The position numbers were made by a program, and so were the translations under genes. A DNA stretch of 20,536 nucleotides from a virus. This document shows, in pieces, positions 609 to 20,536 of this stretch. The stretch spans positions 1 to 20,536 of the IMG/VR virus record IMGVR_UViG_3300027805_000104; one strand, given 5' to 3'. How positions within the stretch are numbered: position 1 is the first letter of the stretch; every line of letters starts with the position of its first letter. The notes under the pieces are model-generated. The model was not told the DNA's origin, made no database searches, and was given only the letters and a program-made list of their open reading frames with translations.

Positions 609-1493
609 TCAGAATAATGATGGCTGCGCTTCGCTTCCCATCGATACCGACGCAAGGTTGCGGACTGCTTGGTCAAAATATGACCGCTTGAGCTCAGCGC
701 CGACGAATCGTCGTCCCATCTGCAGTGAGACGTAGCCTTCACTGCCGATACCCATGAAGGGAGACAGGACCGTGTCGCCGGGATTCGTCCACAGCTTCAC
801 CGCACGGCGGATGACGCCAAGCTGCAACGGACAGATGTGCTTCTCGTCGTCGTTTTCACGTGCGCTGCGGTGCTGAAGTGTATCGCTCTGGTCAATATCC
901 ATCCAGACCGGCGAGGCGTACTGCTGCCACATGCTAACCGGCATGTCATCTTCCTTGCCGGTATGGGTGACTGGCTCGGGATTGTCGCCCGGCTTGCGCA
1001 TAGTGACCAGATAGTCAGGGATACCCTGCCGACTCATCGCGCTGTCTTTTTTGACTTGCTTGTGGAGCAGGCCAAGCGCTTTTGTGCGCTGCATCGCGGT
1101 AACAGGATCCTTCCAGATGACGACCTCGGAATGGAAAATCCAGCCGACTTCTTGGAATGCGCGGATGAGCTGCCCTCGAAAGTCTGTCAGGCCGATGACG
1201 CCATCGCGTGCCTTTGACGTCGGCAGCAGCATGCAATGGAATGACATGAGACGGCCCGGCCTGATGACGCGGTAGAGTTCGGGCGCGAGGTAGCGAAATT
1301 GCGCAAAGAACTCGTCGTGGCTCGCACAATTGCCCATGTCACGCGGGCTCGCGCTGTATGTGTACAGGCTCGCAAAGGGCGGCGAGTAGATACTATAATG
1401 CGCGCTGCTGTCTGGCATCCCTCGGATCACGTCGATGCAGTCGGCGTGGTAGGCTGCAAAATTTTCCGTAATTGTCTGGTCAATAATTTTCAT
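609..1493 (-). CDS. Beta-class DNA methyltransferase
   Basis: Predicted S-adenosylmethionine-dependent DNA methyltransferase of 294 residues acting on N6 of adenine or N4 of cytosine. The catalytic motif IV is SPPF at residues 37-40, followed by SLYTYSASPRDMGN, a stretch typical of phage enzymes of this group. The cofactor-binding motif I is near the C-terminus (SPFMGIGS, residues 244-251, then GRRFVGAELK), so the order is permuted as in the beta class. EKHICPLQLGVIRR just before motif I is also characteristic. An earlier in-frame ATG exists at 1517, but ATG 1493 has GAGGGAG at the right distance and is preferred. It lies 24 bases after the helicase gene and is probably co-transcribed. The target sequence cannot be read from the protein; SPPF leans towards N4-cytosine but does not decide it. 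Confidence 0.9.
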   Translation of the reverse strand: MKIIDQTITENFAAYHADCIDVIRGMPDSSAHYSIYSPPFASLYTYSASPRDMGNCASHDEFFAQFRYLAPELYRVIRPGRLMSFHCMLLPTSKARDGVIGLTDFRGQLIRAFQEVGWIFHSEVVIWKDPVTAMQRTKALGLLHKQVKKDSAMSRQGIPDYLVTMRKPGDNPEPVTHTGKEDDMPVSMWQQYASPVWMDIDQSDTLQHRSARENDDEKHICPLQLGVIRRAVKLWTNPGDTVLSPFMGIGSEGYVSLQMGRRFVGAELKRSYFDQAVRNLASVSMGSEAQPSLF

Positions 1494-1517
1494 GGTTCTC
1501 CCTCTCTCCTCAATCAA

Positions 1518-2897
1518 TCAGTCGTTGGACGTGGTCATCCATGACGGAATCGTCATGGGCGTGTGTGCTTCGTATGGATTCCATTCCCGAGCGCTTGCGC
1601 CCTGGACCTCGGCGCGGACCGAGTCGAGCACTTGCGCGGCCATCTCGGCTCCGAGCCTCGCTGCGTCTGCCTCCTTCCGTCGATAATTATCGATGACCAA
1701 TTGCTCAGTATCGGCTCTGATAATGTGGACATCGACGGGCATCGTTTGACCAAATCGCCAGCATCGACGGATAGCCTGATATGTCTGCTCGTAACTATGG
1801 CTTGCGCCGACAAAAATCATGCGGGCGCAGTGCTGCCAATTCAACCCGAATCCGGCGATGCTCGGCTTTGTGACGATGACGCGTTTTGCGCAAGACGAAA
1901 ACATAGCCAGCTTGGCCTGCTTTTCGTCGACGTCGTCGGACCCTGTCACCTCGACAGCATCGGCAATTGCATCGGCAACTCCAGCGCTCTCGTCGTTCAT
2001 TTCGCACCAGACGATGCATGGGCCATCGCCACGGGCAAGCTCGGCGGCTTTGGCGATTCTGGCGCCAGCGGTCGACCGCCTCACAGCGCGCTGGTCCGAG
2101 AGTGTGGTGGCATTGACTGCGAAAAGGAGCCCCGCTCGATTGGCGTCGCTGTTGTCGACGCGGATAATGTGCTCGTGGAATCGCAGTGGCGGCAGATTGT
2201 AGGCGCCGTCTTCGTGGCCGAGGTCAGACGGCCGTCGGACTACTGCGCCCCACGTCGCCAGCCAGCGCCAGAAGCTCTTGATCGCATGTCCCTTTAGTCT
2301 CCATTCCTGCGTCGTGTCCATGTCATGCACGAAATACTCGGCCAGCATCTCGACGCGGGTCTTGATGCCGAGGAACTCTGAATGGTTGCCGAGCTCCGTG
2401 AAATCGTTCGGCGCTGGCGTCGCTGTTGCTGCAAGCCGATAGGGCGTCGAGTGGAATCCACCGATGATCGCATTCCGAGTCGCACCATTAAACGACTTTA
2501 GGATGCTTGATTCATCAAGCACGACGCCAACAAATGCTGACAGGTCAAACCGATCCATCATCTCGTAATTGGTGACTGTGATGAGGTCGCCCGCATCCTC
2601 GCGACGGTAGGCCATTGGCACGCCAAACCGAGCGCCCTCGGCGACCGTCTGCTGTGCGACCGCAAGCGGCGCTAAAACGAGTACGCGGCCACGACGAGAC
2701 ACATGGCGAGCCCACTCAATTTGGATGGCTGTCTTTCCGAGTCCGGTGTCGGCGAAGATTGCGGAGCGCCCTTTGCGGAGCGCCCATTTTGCGAGGTCGC
2801 GCTGGTGAGAAAAAAGATGATCGGCGAAGTCGTCATCGTCAATGCCGGGGAATGCATCGGCGTAGCTCTTGCGATCAATAAAATCTTGATAGTCCAT
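1518..2897 (-). CDS. SNF2-like DEAD/DEAH-type helicase (459 aa)
   Basis: Superfamily 2 ATPase. Visible motifs are Walker A ADTGLGKT (residues 49-56), Walker B/motif II LDESS (127-131, DESS in place of DEAH), motif III ATATP (157-161), and in the C-terminal lobe TKPSIAGFGLNWQ followed by QAIRRCWRFGQ (motifs V and VI). The glutamine-containing RRCWRFGQ is of the SNF2 kind. There is no nuclease or target-recognition domain. The start ATG 2897 has a GAGGGAGAG Shine-Dalgarno. It lies directly upstream of the methyltransferase, and this helicase-methyltransferase pairing recurs in phages. The role may be DNA translocation in modification, replication or anti-restriction; the sequence does not show which. 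Confidence 0.88.
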   Translation of the reverse strand: MDYQDFIDRKSYADAFPGIDDDDFADHLFSHQRDLAKWALRKGRSAIFADTGLGKTAIQIEWARHVSRRGRVLVLAPLAVAQQTVAEGARFGVPMAYRREDAGDLITVTNYEMMDRFDLSAFVGVVLDESSILKSFNGATRNAIIGGFHSTPYRLAATATPAPNDFTELGNHSEFLGIKTRVEMLAEYFVHDMDTTQEWRLKGHAIKSFWRWLATWGAVVRRPSDLGHEDGAYNLPPLRFHEHIIRVDNSDANRAGLLFAVNATTLSDQRAVRRSTAGARIAKAAELARGDGPCIVWCEMNDESAGVADAIADAVEVTGSDDVDEKQAKLAMFSSCAKRVIVTKPSIAGFGLNWQHCARMIFVGASHSYEQTYQAIRRCWRFGQTMPVDVHIIRADTEQLVIDNYRRKEADAARLGAEMAAQVLDSVRAEVQGASAREWNPYEAHTPMTIPSWMTTSND

Positions 2898-2915: not shown

Positions 2916-3032
2916 TCATCCACGAACAACGGAGCGAGAAGCCCTGATGGCGAGGCGCTTCTTGCGTCCGAGGGCACGAGCCTCGGCGTTGATTCGGGCG
3001 ATCTCTGCGGCGGTGTCAGTGGTGGTGTTCAT
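2916..3032 (-). CDS. Small basic protein (38 aa)
   Basis: First gene of the leftmost leftward unit. It begins MNTTTDTAAEIARINAEARA and ends in a basic stretch (GRKKRLAIRASRS). The start at ATG 3032 is chosen because a strong promoter (-10 at 3040-3045) places the transcription start within a base or two of this ATG, which would make the mRNA leaderless. No Shine-Dalgarno is present. The same frame is open upstream to ATG 3140, which overlaps the stop of the 54-residue gene in an ATGA junction, so a 74-residue form read through the promoter is a real alternative. Function is unknown; the basic tail would suit nucleic-acid binding. Confidence 0.5.
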   Translation of the reverse strand: MNTTTDTAAEIARINAEARALGRKKRLAIRASRSVVRG

Positions 3033-3039
3033 GGGACTC

Positions 3040-3067
3040 AGTCTACACGCAATAAAAACAGTGTCAA
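3040..3067 (-). promoter_or_regulatory. Promoter TTGACA-16-TAGACT for the helicase/methyltransferase unit
   Basis: On the minus strand a perfect -35 TTGACA (3067-3062) and -10 TAGACT (3045-3040) are 16 bases apart. Seven bases separate the -10 from ATG 3032, so the transcript is probably leaderless. The promoter near 11025 has the same -35, the same spacing and a near-identical -10. TAGRNT-type -10 boxes are typical of actinobacteria. Confidence 0.75.
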
Positions 3068-3081
3068 GCAGAAGTGTGATT

Positions 3082-3119
3082 TCCGCTTTGCAAAGCCGGA
3101 TCTGTTGTGAACTGTGATC
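3082..3119 (-). promoter_or_regulatory. 38-bp upstream regulatory element, copy 1
   Basis: This 38-bp stretch is repeated at 11064-11101 with 34 of 38 bases identical. It contains a perfect 12-bp palindrome GCTTTGCAAAGC (3085-3096) and a CTGTGATC end. Its near edge is 14 bp from the -35 TTGACA of the 3050 promoter. In the other copy the distance is 24 bp, which is one helical turn more. I infer a binding site for a phage regulator. Confidence 0.65.
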
Positions 3120-3930: not shown

Positions 3931-4274
3931 AAGTCACTCTCCACCTTGATGCGACATGCGTACTGTCGAGGCTCACCGCGCTCTTGCTCGTAGCGCCACG
4001 TCACAGGGTCGCGTGTGCTGTCACCGCACCCAAGCCAAACGGCAATCTCGTCTCGCACGCTCTTGAATCCGCCCGCGAGATTGTCGCTGTCGAGGTCGCG
4101 CACACCGATACGCACAAGCGTCACGACGACGGGAAGCGGGGGCTTGCGCAGCGGCAACAGCGACCATTTGACGATCGTTCTCTGGTCCTTGCGCCGCTTC
4201 GCATCGGCCGCCCAGTGACCGTGGCTACCGTTGGCCGGTGAGCTGATTTTGATGGGTAGGATGATGTCGATCAT
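3927..4274 (-). CDS. rusA: RusA-like Holliday junction resolvase (115 aa)
   Basis: Predicted endonuclease that resolves Holliday junctions, working as a dimer. The RusA signature is present: VRDLDSDNLAGGFKSVRDEIAVWLG, with acidic residues D60, D62, D64 before N65, D75 and the following GDS (D85). The length is close to the usual 115-130 residues. The frame is open further upstream, but ATG 4274 overlaps the TGA of the XRE gene (ATGA) and starts the conserved N-terminus MIDIILPIKISS, so this start is preferred. It is flanked by recombination genes, in keeping with a branched-DNA role before packaging. Confidence 0.9.
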   Translation of the reverse strand: MIDIILPIKISSPANGSHGHWAADAKRRKDQRTIVKWSLLPLRKPPLPVVVTLVRIGVRDLDSDNLAGGFKSVRDEIAVWLGCGDSTRDPVTWRYEQERGEPRQYACRIKVESDL

Positions 4275-4522
4275 TTCTTTTCCACGACGACACGCAGCGC
4301 ACCGATGCGCATGAGGTCTTTGCCGAAGAGCGCTTTCAGCGCGTCGCAAGTGTCCAGAGAAGGCAGCCACCGCTCGTGCTCGAGCGAACAAATAGCGGCG
4401 GCTGTCCTTCCGCATGCGGCGCCTACCTCGTCGAGGGTCAGGCCCCGAGACTGACGGATCGCGCGTAGGCGCTCGCCGTCGAGCTCGATGCGGTGACCCT
4501 CGCGTGTGTAGGCTATCCGCAT
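4271..4522 (-). CDS. XRE-family helix-turn-helix DNA-binding protein (83 aa)
   Basis: A Cro/C1-type HTH occupies about residues 17-62: GERLRAIRQSRGLTLDEVGAA followed by TAAAICSLEHERWLPSLDTC, with the usual helix 2-turn-helix 3 spacing. It begins 3 bases after the stop of the DUF669 gene. A regulator inside a recombination operon is a little unusual. It could feed back on the operon's own promoter, where a perfect 7-bp inverted repeat lies at 5803-5820, or bind the 38-bp elements. Neither is shown by sequence. There is no oligomerisation or cleavage domain, so a classical CI repressor is unlikely. Confidence 0.85.
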   Translation of the reverse strand: MRIAYTREGHRIELDGERLRAIRQSRGLTLDEVGAACGRTAAAICSLEHERWLPSLDTCDALKALFGKDLMRIGALRVVVEKK

Positions 4523-5792: not shown

Positions 5793-5830
5793 TTGCATGG
5801 TCTTGTAGCAAGCGCTACAAAGCGCGTCAA
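5793..5830. promoter_or_regulatory. Symmetrical overlapping divergent promoters with palindromic operator
   Basis: Minus strand: -35 TTGACG (5830-5825), 17-base spacer, -10 TACAAG (5807-5802), serving the Sak4 operon. Plus strand: -35 TTGCAT (5793-5798), 17-base spacer, -10 TACAAA (5816-5821), serving the DEAH helicase. The two -10 boxes lie in the arms of a perfect inverted repeat TTGTAGC-AAGC-GCTACAA (5803-5820), and every element is mirrored about 5811.5. The plus -35 is a weak match, so the plus promoter is less certain than the minus. Confidence 0.65.
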
Positions 5831-10206: not shown

Positions 10207-10359
10207 CTAGGGCTCGCGCTCGGCTTCTCGGTAGGCGTCGCATGCGCGGCAGATGTCTTCCCAAGCGGCGAGGGTCTCGCACCGACAGTCGGGGCAGACC
10301 CTGGGGGCCTCGTCACCGGGGTCGGGCAGATCACGATCGGGGTCGGCGGGGCGTGTCAT
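10207..10359 (-). CDS. Small Cys-pair (zinc ribbon-like) protein (50 aa)
   Basis: The frame runs from ATG 10359, which overlaps the previous stop in an ATGA junction, to TAG at 10209-10207, shortly before the minus-strand terminator. The protein has an acidic N-terminus (MTRPADPDRDLPDPGDE), then CPDC (C22, C25) and CRAC (C37, C40) pairs that could bind one zinc. The function is unknown. Small zinc-binding proteins of this type are common among phage accessory genes and may contact host proteins or nucleic acid. Confidence 0.65.
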   Translation of the reverse strand: MTRPADPDRDLPDPGDEAPRVCPDCRCETLAAWEDICRACDAYREAEREP

Positions 10360-10541
10360 CGGTCGTCCTTGGCCTGGTCGTACTCGTCATCGACGCGGGC
10401 GCGCTCGGCACAGTAGCGGCATCGGCCGCGGTGGTGGATCTCGACGTGGCAGTCCTCGCACCAATTTTCCTCGGCTTCTTCGTCGACGAGGTAGCCAAGC
10501 TCGGCGTCGGTGAGGGGCGGATCGAAGTCGCGGTCGGTCAT
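10356..10541 (-). CDS. Small Cys-pair (zinc ribbon-like) protein (61 aa)
   Basis: The frame is open upstream, but ATG 10541 overlaps the previous gene's TGA (ATGA) and is preferred. It reads MTDRDFDPPLTDAELGYLVD, then CEDC (C37, C40), two histidines (EIHHRG) and CRYC (C49, C52), then an acidic tail. The paired cysteines with histidines between them suggest a zinc-binding ribbon. It shares the two-CxxC plan with the next gene downstream, though the sequences are otherwise unlike. No family is recognised. Confidence 0.65.
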   Translation of the reverse strand: MTDRDFDPPLTDAELGYLVDEEAEENWCEDCHVEIHHRGRCRYCAERARVDDEYDQAKDDR

Positions 10542-10651
10542 GGTGCACCGATCCCGAGCTCGGGGTGGGCCAGCATCCACGCCCACACGGGCAGACCCTC
10601 GCGGCGGGCCTGGAGGACGATGGCGCGTTGTGTCGTTTTGCACAGTCTCAT
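10538..10651 (-). CDS. Small hypothetical protein (37 aa)
   Basis: Starts at ATG 10651 behind a good Shine-Dalgarno (AGAGGAGA) and ends in an ATGA overlap with the next gene. The protein, MRLCKTTQRAIVLQARREGL followed by PVWAWMLAHPELGIGAP, is basic at the front and has a short tryptophan-containing hydrophobic part. No family is recognised. The strong ribosome site and the coupling are the evidence that it is real. Confidence 0.6.
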   Translation of the reverse strand: MRLCKTTQRAIVLQARREGLPVWAWMLAHPELGIGAP

Positions 10652-10668
10652 TTGTGTCTCCTCTGACG

Positions 10669-10699
10669 CCACGAGCCGGGCTAGCCCCGGCTGGCGTGG
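10669..10699 (-). other. GC-rich hairpin between two small genes
   Basis: AGCCGGG (10674-10680) and CCCGGCT (10686-10692) pair around a 5-base loop, extended by CCACG/CGTGG (10669-10673, 10695-10699) with a two-base bulge. It lies between the 83-residue gene and the Shine-Dalgarno of the next. There is no T tract, so it may be an RNA-processing or mRNA-stability stem, or an attenuator, rather than a terminator. Confidence 0.5.
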
Positions 10700-10715
10700 T
10701 GGTGGTGTGGTGGGC

Positions 10716-10967
10716 TCAGGCGGCGTAGATGACGTCGAGCGTAGACCCGTCACGGTCGATGATGGCGACGTCGTGGCCCTTGGCGGTCGCGATATCGGCG
10801 GCAAGAGCGCGGACGGCGGTCATCACCGCATGGATGGCGCGGCCATCATCGTCGACCCAGGAGTGGCGCAGCGTGACGCGGCGACCGTCGCGGCTGGTGC
10901 GGGCGACGTCGGAGCCGTCGAGGCGGAGACCGGTGATGGCGCAGTTGCGGATGATGGTCTTGGTCAT
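10716..10967 (-). CDS. Hypothetical protein, first gene of small-gene cluster (83 aa)
   Basis: Begins MTKTIIRNCAITGLRLDGSD after a GGGAGAG Shine-Dalgarno and lies about 40 bases downstream of the predicted transcription start of the promoter near 11025. It has a probable short beta-rich N-terminus and a helical middle (MTAVRALAADIATAKGHDVA), with no catalytic motif that I recognise. It leads a four-gene leftward transcript that ends at the 10128-10162 terminator. The shared upstream element suggests that the same regulator controls this cluster and the helicase/methyltransferase unit. Confidence 0.7.
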   Translation of the reverse strand: MTKTIIRNCAITGLRLDGSDVARTSRDGRRVTLRHSWVDDDGRAIHAVMTAVRALAADIATAKGHDVAIIDRDGSTLDVIYAA

Positions 10968-11011: not shown

Positions 11012-11039
11012 ATTCTACACAGCTTTGAAAACTTGTCAA
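11012..11039 (-). promoter_or_regulatory. Promoter TTGACA-16-TAGAAT for the small-gene cluster
   Basis: Minus strand -35 TTGACA (11039-11034) and -10 TAGAAT (11017-11012), 16 bases apart. The transcription start would fall near 11005, leaving a leader of about 38 bases that includes the GGGAGAG ribosome site of the 83-residue gene. Confidence 0.78.
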
Positions 11040-11063
11040 GCACTGTGCTTGTGGGGGCAGATC

Positions 11064-11101
11064 TCCGCGTTGCAAAGCCGGATCTGGGGTGATCTGTGAT
11101 C
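11064..11101 (-). promoter_or_regulatory. 38-bp upstream regulatory element, copy 2
   Basis: 34 of 38 bases match copy 1 at 3082-3119; the 12-bp palindrome here has one changed base (GCGTTGCAAAGC, 11067-11078). The near edge is 24 bp from the -35. It lies within a wider run of GATCTG repeats reaching to about 11140. Confidence 0.65.
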
Positions 11102-11136
11102 TGTCCGGGTGATCTGTCGGGTGCGATCGGGTGGTC
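11081..11136. repeat. Iterated GATCTG / GGGTGATCTGT repeats
   Basis: GATCTG occurs at 11081, 11091, 11098 and 11111. GGGTGATCTGT occurs exactly twice, at 11087-11097 and 11107-11117, 20 bp apart (two helical turns). Variants GATCGG (11125) and GGTCTG (11132) follow. The array lies about 230 bp before the small terminase gene, so it may be a protein-binding array for a regulator or a packaging site. Confidence 0.55.
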
Positions 11137-17469: not shown

Positions 17470-18701
17470 CTGACGTCTCAAGACTCTCGACGCTGCGATA
17501 TGCGCTGCACACGAACAACACGACGTTCACGGGCACGCCTGGCACGTTGTTCCCGCTTCGTATCACCGACGACGGCGCATCGTTCTTGCCGCGCAATCGC
17601 ACGCCGATTCCGCGCCCGCTGCGCTCGCTCTCGGGGCGCCGCTACTCGCATATCCGCGGCGTCCAAGACCTCGCCGACATCACCGTGGCGACGGAGATGC
17701 GCGGCGTGAACAGCAACACCGGCGCGGCTGTCACCGACTGGGAAGCGAAGATGGAGCAGGGCTACTTGCTCGCCTCGCTCTTCGGCGCGGTGGCTCCAGC
17801 GACGACGGGCGTTGCGCCGACGATTGCGGCATCGGGTCACACGCCAGCATCGGGCATCCTCGCCGTCGTCGGCACCACGACGGCCAATGGACAGGTCATC
17901 GCGTTTTCGTCGTCGGCCGGCCTGCAGGTCGGCCGCATCGCGAGCGGTGGCGGCACGACGACGCTGACGCTCGACCATCCCTACAGCGGCACGCCGACGA
18001 CGTCGGCAACCGTGTTTCGAATGGGCGTCTACAGCGTCAACGACAGCGCAACGCAACATGTGCACGCATTCTTTGCCGCTGAGGGCGAGGATTGGCGACG
18101 CGACTATTTCGGCTGCATGCCTATGAGCATGAGCCTCGCGGTGCCAAACGCTGGTCTCATGACGATGTCGTCTGTCTTCTCGCCGACGTCGTTCTCCGAC
18201 GTCACTGAGGCCAATCCGGCGCACGCTGAGCCGACGTCGGGAAACCCCATCGTCGTCGACGCGTGCCGCGTGTGGTTCGCTGGCAATGACGTCATCGCTC
18301 GCGACATCACGATCAATTATTCCGCGGCGACAACGCCTCGTGTTGCGTCGACGCGGACGAATGGTCGCGTCGGTGGCGTGTCGTCGACCGGCGACGGTAA
18401 GACATTCACGGTGGAGTTCAGCGTCTATCTCGGTGACGCGACGTTGCCCGGCGAGCTGCAGGACAGCGCGGGCACGCCGACGCTCAATGACCTTCTCGGC
18501 GATGGCGCAATCCTCAGCGGCCAACCGTCGGCGACGCGCAAAGTGTCGCTCCAGGTCGGCAGCGAAGTCGGCGCGGTCGTCTATGCCTACCTGCCAGAGG
18601 CCGATTGCGTGGTCACCACGCAGCACGCCGACGGGCTCACCGTTGCTCGCGTCGTCGCCACCGGCACCGGCGCTCTTCCTGCTATCCTCGCTGTGGGGTA
18701 A
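17466..18701 (+). CDS. Major tail tube protein (411 aa)
   Basis: Tube-forming protein of a siphovirus or similar tail. SHIRGVQDLADITVATEMRG and DWEAKMEQGYLLASLFGAVA fit tail tube proteins. An inserted Gly/Thr-rich beta domain (about residues 118-190, TTANGQVIAFSSSAGLQVG and TTLTLDHPYSG) and a beta-rich C-terminus follow. The frame is well supported (GTGAGGTA before the ATG). Its length exceeds the usual 200-300 residues, which fits the inserted domain. No contractile sheath gene is seen, so the tail is more likely non-contractile. Confidence 0.75.
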   Translation: MTDVSRLSTLRYALHTNNTTFTGTPGTLFPLRITDDGASFLPRNRTPIPRPLRSLSGRRYSHIRGVQDLADITVATEMRGVNSNTGAAVTDWEAKMEQGYLLASLFGAVAPATTGVAPTIAASGHTPASGILAVVGTTTANGQVIAFSSSAGLQVGRIASGGGTTTLTLDHPYSGTPTTSATVFRMGVYSVNDSATQHVHAFFAAEGEDWRRDYFGCMPMSMSLAVPNAGLMTMSSVFSPTSFSDVTEANPAHAEPTSGNPIVVDACRVWFAGNDVIARDITINYSAATTPRVASTRTNGRVGGVSSTGDGKTFTVEFSVYLGDATLPGELQDSAGTPTLNDLLGDGAILSGQPSATRKVSLQVGSEVGAVVYAYLPEADCVVTTQHADGLTVARVVATGTGALPAILAVG

Positions 18702-18707
18702 TCAATC

Positions 18708-19109
18708 ATGGCTGTCCGCATCGCAAACACCGTCAGAAATTCTCGCATTGACGATATTCGCGCCGCCGTCGACGCTGGCGCGGGCGCTGGTCTTCTCCGT
18801 ATCTACAGCGGCACCAAGCCCGCCAAGGGAGCGACGCCAGCGGGTACCTTGCTCGCTGAGCTCACATGCGCCGATCCTTGCGGCTCGTCGACGGGTGGCG
18901 TGCTGACGTTCACCGTGCCGTTCTCCGACACGAGCGCAAACGCCACGGGCACCGCCGCGTTTTTCTATCTCGTCGACTCGACGGGCGCGTTCGTCTGCGA
19001 CGGCGACTGCGGCACGAGCGGGTCTGACCTCAACTTGACGACGCTGTCGATCGTCGCTGGTCAACCCGTGCAGGTGACGAGCTTGACCATCACCGATGGC
19101 AACAACTGA
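18708..19109 (+). CDS. Conserved phage structural protein, function unknown (133 aa)
   Basis: A beta-rich protein beginning MAVRIANTVRNSRIDDIRAA and carrying LRIYSGTKPAKGATPAGTLL, GTAAFFYLVDSTGAFVCDG and a C-terminal beta repeat. This pattern is familiar from structural regions of tailed phages but I do not know a defined role. Decoration or tail-associated roles are both possible. It begins 6 bases after the tail tube stop with only a weak ribosome site (GGGG). Confidence 0.65.
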   Translation: MAVRIANTVRNSRIDDIRAAVDAGAGAGLLRIYSGTKPAKGATPAGTLLAELTCADPCGSSTGGVLTFTVPFSDTSANATGTAAFFYLVDSTGAFVCDGDCGTSGSDLNLTTLSIVAGQPVQVTSLTITDGNN

Positions 19110-19117
19110 GGTGAGCG

Positions 19118-19525
19118 ATGCCTGACAACGTCGGATACACACCGGGATCGGGCGCTACCATTGCTGCCGACGACGTCGGCGGCGCGCTCTTGCAACGAGT
19201 CAAGATCGTGCAGGGCATCGACGGCGTCAACGATGGCGACGTTGCGTCCAGCAATCCGCTGCCGGTGCAAGAGGCATCGGGCGCGATGTCGCTCCTTCGA
19301 CGCATCCTCGAGCGGCTCATGTCTCCCGTCGGATTCGACATGTCGCTCGACCGCTCGCGCGTTACGGCGGTGCTCGAGAGCGGCACGGTGACGACGGTGT
19401 CGACGGTGACGACAGTGACGACAGTGACCGGCTTGACCAACATCGACGGACGAAACGGCGCAATGCTGATCGACCAGACCAACCTGTCGGCGTGGGCAAA
19501 CATCCACCGCGCTCGAATCACCTGA
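19118..19525 (+). CDS. Phage structural protein with VTT repeat (135 aa)
   Basis: Starts after GAGGTGAG and reads MPDNVGYTPGSGATIAADDV, GGALLQRVKIVQGIDGVNDG and PLPVQEAS. Residues 91-104 consist of a Val-Thr-Thr tract coded by a 9-bp tandem repeat at 19388-19429. Proteins beginning with GSGATIAADDV-like segments are frequent in phage structural clusters, but their place in the virion is not known to me. The repeat may form a stiff beta segment. It is likely co-translated with the genes on both sides. Confidence 0.65.
   Translation: MPDNVGYTPGSGATIAADDVGGALLQRVKIVQGIDGVNDGDVASSNPLPVQEASGAMSLLRRILERLMSPVGFDMSLDRSRVTAVLESGTVTTVSTVTTVTTVTGLTNIDGRNGAMLIDQTNLSAWANIHRARIT
19388..19429 (+). repeat. 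9-bp tandem repeat (GTG ACG ACR) within coding region
   Basis: Units start at 19388, 19397, 19406, 19415 and 19424 (partial), with one TCG variant. The unit is a multiple of three, so slippage would change the protein's length without breaking the frame. Confidence 0.8.
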
Positions 19526-19534
19526 GAGGACGCC

Positions 19535-20536
19535 ATGGCCAACACGTTCAAAAAAGTCATCGATCGCATGATGTGGGCGCAGGTCCATCCGTCGACAAAC
19601 GCGCACGCTGCTGGATCGTCGATGGCGTCGGACATGCGAAACGACGCGAGCCGAAATCCGTTCGTCTACAATCTCATTTCGACGTCTGCCGCAAATCGAT
19701 TCAATATCGTCACTAAAGGATGGCAGTTTGCGTTCACTCCAGGCGTGGCAGCTGTCGCCGCTTCGTCGACGTCATGCTTTGTCCCGTCGTTCGGCGCAGT
19801 CGGCACGATCGCAGCAGGCGCCACGACGACGAGTGTTGTCCTCTCGACGGCACTGGCGACGGCACCTGGTCTCAACATGCTGGCCAATCGAGGCGGGTCA
19901 GGAGAACTCGGATTCAGGATCCGAATCATCGACACGACAGCGGGCAAAACCGAGGAACGTTGGATCGTGGCCAATACGGCTTCGACGACGCCGACGATTC
20001 ACGTTGACGCGGCCTTTACGTTCACGCCTGCAACTGGTGCGCGCTACGAAATCCTCGGCGGGCGGTTCATCATGCTGTCGTCTGGCGCCATCGCAGCGGC
20101 CTCGTGGCGTTCGTTTGAGGTTTCCACAAATTCATTTGCCAACCTTGGCACGACCAACCTTCCGACAATTGCCACCGAATCGTCTCTGCTTGTGATGGAC
20201 GAAGCATACGTCCCCTACGACCACAAACCCGGCGAAGGCATGGTCAAGGGCGCCACGGTCTACGACGCCTCGCCAGCGGGCCAAGGGCTCGTCGCGTTGC
20301 TCGCGACGGCATCGGCAGCGGCGACGATCACAGGCCAAGCAACTGGCGGTGACGCCGTCGTCGTGGCCAACGAGTATCGCAATTTTCAGGTCCGAATCGT
20401 GGCCGACCCGACGACGCCGGCCAGTGTTGGCCAACGCCGCGTCATCGCCAGCCACACGGCTGGGCCATCGGCAGTCTACACGCTCGGCACCGCATGGACG
20501 ACGCAGCCATCGTCGTCGGCGCGTTTCGTCATCGAG
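19535..20536 (+). CDS. Conserved phage structural protein, C-terminus beyond window
   Basis: ATG 19535 follows GAGAGGA and the frame stays open for 334 codons to the right edge. It begins MANTFKKVIDRMMWAQVHPS, with RNPFVYNLISTSAANRFNIV next, then a beta-rich Ala/Thr/Gly sequence with MLANRGGSGELGFRIRIIDT, GKTEERWIVANTASTTPTIH, DEAYVPYDHKPGEGMVKGAT and ITGQATGGDAVVVANEYRNF. I recognise this as a recurrent phage structural type but not its function; a distal tail, host-attachment or even head role is open. The frame and codon usage continue without interruption. Confidence 0.75.
   Translation, partial: MANTFKKVIDRMMWAQVHPSTNAHAAGSSMASDMRNDASRNPFVYNLISTSAANRFNIVTKGWQFAFTPGVAAVAASSTSCFVPSFGAVGTIAAGATTTSVVLSTALATAPGLNMLANRGGSGELGFRIRIIDTTAGKTEERWIVANTASTTPTIHVDAAFTFTPATGARYEILGGRFIMLSSGAIAAASWRSFEVSTNSFANLGTTNLPTIATESSLLVMDEAYVPYDHKPGEGMVKGATVYDASPAGQGLVALLATASAAATITGQATGGDAVVVANEYRNFQVRIVADPTTPASVGQRRVIASHTAGPSAVYTLGTAWTTQPSSSARFVIE

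Follow-up and report, generated by a model that had tools for sequence, protein, structure and literature searches.

Two copies of one element in the window

Two minus-strand promoters of the window, the whole 20,536-base viral record analyzed here, are preceded by nearly the same sequence at two different distances, which raises the question of what this sequence does and why it is found at more than one place with respect to the −35 box. As read directly from the sequence, promoter 1 (3040..3067, minus strand) is composed of TTGACA (3062–3067), a 16-bp spacer, and TAGACT (3040–3045), and promoter 2 (11012..11039, minus strand) is composed of TTGACA (11034–11039), a 16-bp spacer, and TAGAAT (11012–11017). 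The sequence-only reading that drew attention to this pair described both promoters correctly, and they are the only TTGACA-16-TAGAMT arrangements in the window, even when up to one mismatch is allowed (chance expectation 0.03). Its further figures are also borne out: positions 3082–3119 and 11064–11101 are identical at 34 of 38 bases, and the 38-mer ends 14 bp from the −35 box in copy 1 and 24 bp from it in copy 2. The match extends to 37 of 42 bases over 3078–3119 and 11060–11101 (BLAST E 7e-11), and it is far above what resampled sequence yields: when the window was resampled 40 times under a first-order Markov model, no ungapped 38-mer match exceeded 28/38.

Copy 1 (3078..3119, minus strand, GATCACAGTTCACAACAGATCCGGCTTTGCAAAGCGGAAATC), a member of the short-spacing class described below and assigned to the family by pattern, contains GCTTTGCAAAGC, the 12-bp palindrome of the earlier description, which is perfect. 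Copy 2 (11060..11101, minus strand, GATCACAGATCACCCCAGATCCGGCTTTGCAACGCGGAGATC) is a member of the long-spacing class and is accompanied upstream by additional CAGATCA words at 11090, 11097, and 11110 (11090..11116, minus strand), visible in the sequence and in the family logo; these words belong to a group-wide upstream motif, ACAGATCAC, and are absent from copy 1. The window has exactly two matches to the core pattern GATCYGGCTT-N4-ANGC (expected 0). The DNA between element and −35 box, previously described as not conserved, does differ between the two copies, with the exception of a TGC directly 5′ of TTGACA, which is kept. A coding explanation of the match was discarded because the copies lie in different intergenic contexts and the element elsewhere precedes promoters, and a structured RNA, such as a riboswitch or leader, was set aside because Rfam gives no match in the window and the element lies upstream of the promoter.

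An element family with two spacing classes

The element recurs in a group of uncultured phages, whose members were gathered from viral contigs by exact and degenerate pattern scans and by protein-guided scans; all of the collected sequences are metagenomic fragments. The group consensus is ACAGATCAC-N10-TGATCYGGCTTTGCAANGCSG, and many relatives have an architecture comprising upstream CAGATCA words, the core TGATCYGGCTTTGCAANGC, a variable gap, TGCTTGACA, a spacer of 16 or 17 bp, and a TAGAAT-like −10 box. Information content is 1.3–2.4 bits over most of the core, 0–0.4 bits in the flanks, and near zero in the gap. Of the dyads in the consensus, the palindrome GGCTTTGCAANGC and CAGATCA-N11-TGATCYG score highest. 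A −35 box lies within 8–38 bp of almost all core copies in the collected set.

The distance between core and −35 box was examined with a scan of viral contigs for GATCYGGCTT-N4-ANGC-N{8,38}-TTGACA, in which every gap from 8 to 38 was allowed. Of 40 matches in 36 contigs, 36 are 40–41 or 51–52 nt long and lie at promoters, a count that includes L301, although its contig ends before the −10 box; the remaining four (44 and 58 nt) have no promoter. In a looser, curated set of 46 promoter regions, with the distance taken from the T of TGATC to the −35 box and 30–56 bp allowed, the observed values are 35 (three regions), 36 (eight), 45 (three), 46 (24), and 47 bp (eight), with none elsewhere in the allowed range. 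The regions thus fall into 11 of a short class (35–36 bp) and 35 of a long class (45–47 bp), with means of 35.7 and 46.1 bp, 10.4 bp apart, and the one-turn difference read from two copies in the window holds well beyond them. These promoters share ancestry and so amount to fewer than 46 effective observations; clustering yields 17 sequence families, four short and 13 long, whose phase coherence for a period of 10.45 bp is 0.95, a value not reached in 20,000 uniform simulations, with the caveat that the families are themselves not fully independent.

Pairwise comparisons place the difference between the classes within otherwise similar promoters. The terminator upstream, the core, and much the greater part of the promoter are shared by L007 (35 bp) and L316 (46 bp), but the DNA between these parts differs in length by 11 bp. 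A one-turn indel distinguishes the near-orthologous promoters of L007/L262 from that of L316 and, in the same manner, those of L118/L282 from that of L301, and L267/L311 (36 bp) and L317 (46 bp) are alike in both flanks and differ by a one-turn indel. Orientation was controlled with the divergent arrangement, in which TTGACA faces away on the other strand. This control gave 16 matches, about 10 of them distinct, scattered over 32–55 nt and located mostly in coding-like DNA of phages outside the set; nine of the 16 are 51–52 nt long but represent three distinct sequences, one of them seen five times, and none has the architecture of an element promoter. In this phage group, then, the element is associated with promoters in one orientation, as judged against the divergent arrangement, and at two phased distances.

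The two classes also differ in the composition of the intervening DNA. In the long class, the stretch 12–23 bp before the −35 box is mostly 60–87% A+T (one position about half) in a genome of 63% G+C, and it occupies the place expected of an UP element; in the short class, a length of DNA about equal to this stretch is missing. If transcription starts 7 nt after the −10 box, the center of the palindrome is near −68 in the long class and near −57 in the short class.

Some variations on the architecture were observed. L004 (position 3517) and L088 (position 9408) each have an additional core copy that lacks a promoter at the customary spacing and is located near a divergently oriented promoter; these copies may serve the divergent promoter or be relics. 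In the element-free relatives L106 (G017), L108 (G018), L117 (G022), and L012 (G038), divergent promoters carry CAGATC(A) within the −35/−10 spacer at a near-fixed place close to the −10 box, which suggests that the same word is used there in another way.

Genes behind the element

The first gene behind promoter 1 is a 38-amino acid open reading frame (2916..3032, minus strand); only 7 nt separate its ATG from the −10 hexamer, and it is probably expressed from a leaderless transcript. It is followed by a helicase (1518..2897, minus strand; PHROG 62, E 2e-60) and an N6/N4 DNA methyltransferase (609..1517, minus strand; PHROG 67; PF01555, E 3e-17), the latter with MboIIA, CcrM, and DpnA as relatives in the PDB. 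Promoter 2 is followed by an 83-amino acid gene (10716..10967, minus strand) with the Shine–Dalgarno sequence GGGAGAG, for which no Pfam match and no relatives in viral contigs were found, and then by open reading frames of no assigned function (10538–10804 and 10356–10643, minus strand). Start codons 6–7 nt after the −10 box are seen behind several such promoters (the window at 2916–3032, L005, L006, L094, and L097), implying leaderless mRNAs. In L005 and L006, a similar short leaderless open reading frame precedes the helicase, there without the element.

The two loci have different histories among relatives. Helicase relatives with 78–87% identity lack the element upstream of the helicase, although in L005 and L006 it stands in front of a different gene; among the phages seen, its placement before the helicase/methyltransferase unit is therefore peculiar to this one. 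Copy 2 adjoins the terminase genes, and the element is found at the same place in L004, L085, L086, L087, L088, L126, and L127. At this terminase-adjacent locus the element is conserved and the first gene that it serves is swapped between relatives, the place of the 83-amino acid gene being taken by other small genes. Absence of the element from relatives that keep the genes, named in the sequence-only reading as evidence against itself, is thus seen at the helicase locus and not at the terminase-adjacent one, and the proposed regulon joining the helicase/methyltransferase unit to the small-gene cluster is a link present in this genome but not conserved in the relatives seen. As read from sequence, the element and its promoter are a portable unit that phages place before unrelated small genes. 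In G015 (L100), four element promoters lie within 1.2 kb (18129–19274), with a different small open reading frame after each.

A putative regulator and its alternatives

We consider it fairly probable that the element is the upstream site of a face-dependent regulator, probably an activator, that contacts RNA polymerase at the adjacent sigma-70-type promoter. The putative regulator would bind the element and reach the polymerase from one face of the helix only, so that the element would tolerate two positions one turn apart. Contact would most simply be made with the α C-terminal domains of the polymerase, given that in the long class element and −35 box are separated by an A/T-rich stretch resembling an UP element, and the effect of the bound protein would be activation. 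Counting against this reading, the −35 and −10 boxes are near consensus, such that activation is not obviously needed. The same face-dependent contact could instead belong to a repressor that holds the polymerase at the promoter, or one that turns strong early promoters off as infection proceeds. Near-consensus boxes would suit this arrangement, since the promoters may be strong unaided, as would the CAGATC words in the −35/−10 spacer of some element-free relatives, a position typical of repressor sites; sites centered around −57 and −68 are, however, unusual for simple repression, and the A/T-rich stretch of the long class fits activation better, making an upstream repressor site rather unlikely. 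That the element is part of a mobile promoter cassette of recent spread with no bound regulator, element and promoter being copied together by recombination, appears quite improbable. Near-identical modules do precede unrelated small genes, as in the four modules of L100, but the core and the two phased distances have been kept while the flanks and the DNA between element and −35 box have diverged, and copying alone would not explain why distances that differ by exactly one turn recur across several families.

The XRE-type protein encoded in the window (4271–4522), previously suggested as the binder, is very unlikely to be so. XRE-type proteins bind short palindromes, and homologues are present in many relatives, but none was detected in G004 (32 kb) or G019 (38 kb), two contigs that carry the element and may be incomplete, and some element-free contigs carry one. 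The XRE-operon promoters, moreover, hold palindromes of their own, lineage-specific and other than the element. The promoter of the Sak4/SSB/XRE operon (TTGACG-17-TACAAG; 5802–5830, minus strand) is overlapped at its spacer and −10 box by TTGTAGC-N4-GCTACAA (5803–5820), and a different palindrome, TTCTATCGG-N3-CCGATAGAA (TTCTATCGGACCCCGATAGAA), occupies the same place in L088. These palindromes look like XRE autoregulation with changing specificity. The element was accordingly rejected as the XRE operator of this phage, since XRE was not detected in every contig that has the element. Of the original proposal, the central idea of a regulator site kept on one helix face with respect to the polymerase is strongly supported (46 regions, 17 families), whereas the XRE protein as binder and the conserved regulon are not.

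A host protein, or a phage protein so far unrecognized, is a likelier binder than the XRE protein. No DNA-binding family common to all element-bearing long contigs was found among the genes scanned, in contigs that may be incomplete and with a protein clustering dominated by antisense open reading frames; Pfam scans of selected genes gave a Cro/C1-type HTH and ParB_N in G004, and only RHH-type matches in G019. A broader picture, which we hold tentatively, is that of a plug-in promoter module of one uncultured phage lineage, with an upstream site read by a putative, perhaps host-encoded and perhaps GATC-methylation-sensitive regulator, new small genes dropped behind it, and one helical turn repeatedly gained or lost with the module still working. 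GATC depletion as a sign of methylation was not seen (161 sites, 169 expected). The family would show, as a natural experiment, that promoters depend on the face of the helix, one helical turn being the only length that evolution has repeatedly added or removed in this sample. The element's sequence can also serve in the search for the first genes and the regulator of a phage lineage for which no cultured member was found, and as a signature that marks many small phage genes of no assigned function as co-regulated.

Several known systems are reminiscent of the element. Class I activator sites, such as those of CRP and of Fis at rrn P1, lie upstream and act through α C-terminal domain contacts that depend on phase in helical-turn steps. 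Similar to these, the element is upstream, moves in a one-turn step (35–36 and 45–47 bp only in the 46 regions, the whole-turn spacing of a class I type site), and is separated from the −35 box by A/T-rich DNA; unlike the class I CRP site, it has a core promoter near consensus, and its consensus contains CAGATCA-N11-TGATCYG and GGCTTTGCAANGC rather than the TGTGA-N6-TCACA dyad, for which reason a CRP/FNR-type site was rejected. The late promoters of P2 and P4, which Ogr/delta activates, offer a further parallel, in that several promoters of a single phage regulon have dyad sites upstream, all at about −55, but they lack a good −35 box, whereas element promoters are near consensus. Stoperators of cluster A mycobacteriophages are asymmetric repressor sites and, like the element, are repeated short phage sites in a regulatory network; they are scattered in the genomes, whereas nearly every element copy is tied to a promoter. 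The ESAS of cluster K mycobacteriophages resembles the element as a repeated, phage-specific sequence of inverted-repeat character upstream of many nonstructural genes and is a proposed protein binding site, with no binder known according to the available excerpt of its description (PMC3203893). It consists of two 17-bp inverted repeats with a variable 4–13-bp spacer, directly upstream of the 13-bp start-codon sequence SAS, GGGATAGGAGCCC, and the same excerpt does not report that the ESAS keeps a set distance, in phase with the helix, from a −35 box (PMC3203893). Membership in ESAS/SAS was rejected, since the element precedes a −35 box (46 regions) and a GGGATAGGAGCCC-type 13-mer was not seen at the starts examined at the terminase-adjacent locus.

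A literature search found no description of the element. The element with its −35 box has no matches in 386 cyanobacterial and 396 actinobacterial genomes, picked as guesses at the host, and so no host regulon or prophage was detected there; an 18-position pattern scan of whole genomes was uninformative, its matches being spread across unrelated bacteria at chance number. Neither a DNA search with promoter 2 nor the portal protein gave a match in cultured phages. The sole DNA match among cultured phages, in a phage without the element, is that of window positions 19534–20536 to a hypothetical-protein gene of Synechococcus phage MinM1, with 72% identity over 1 kb.
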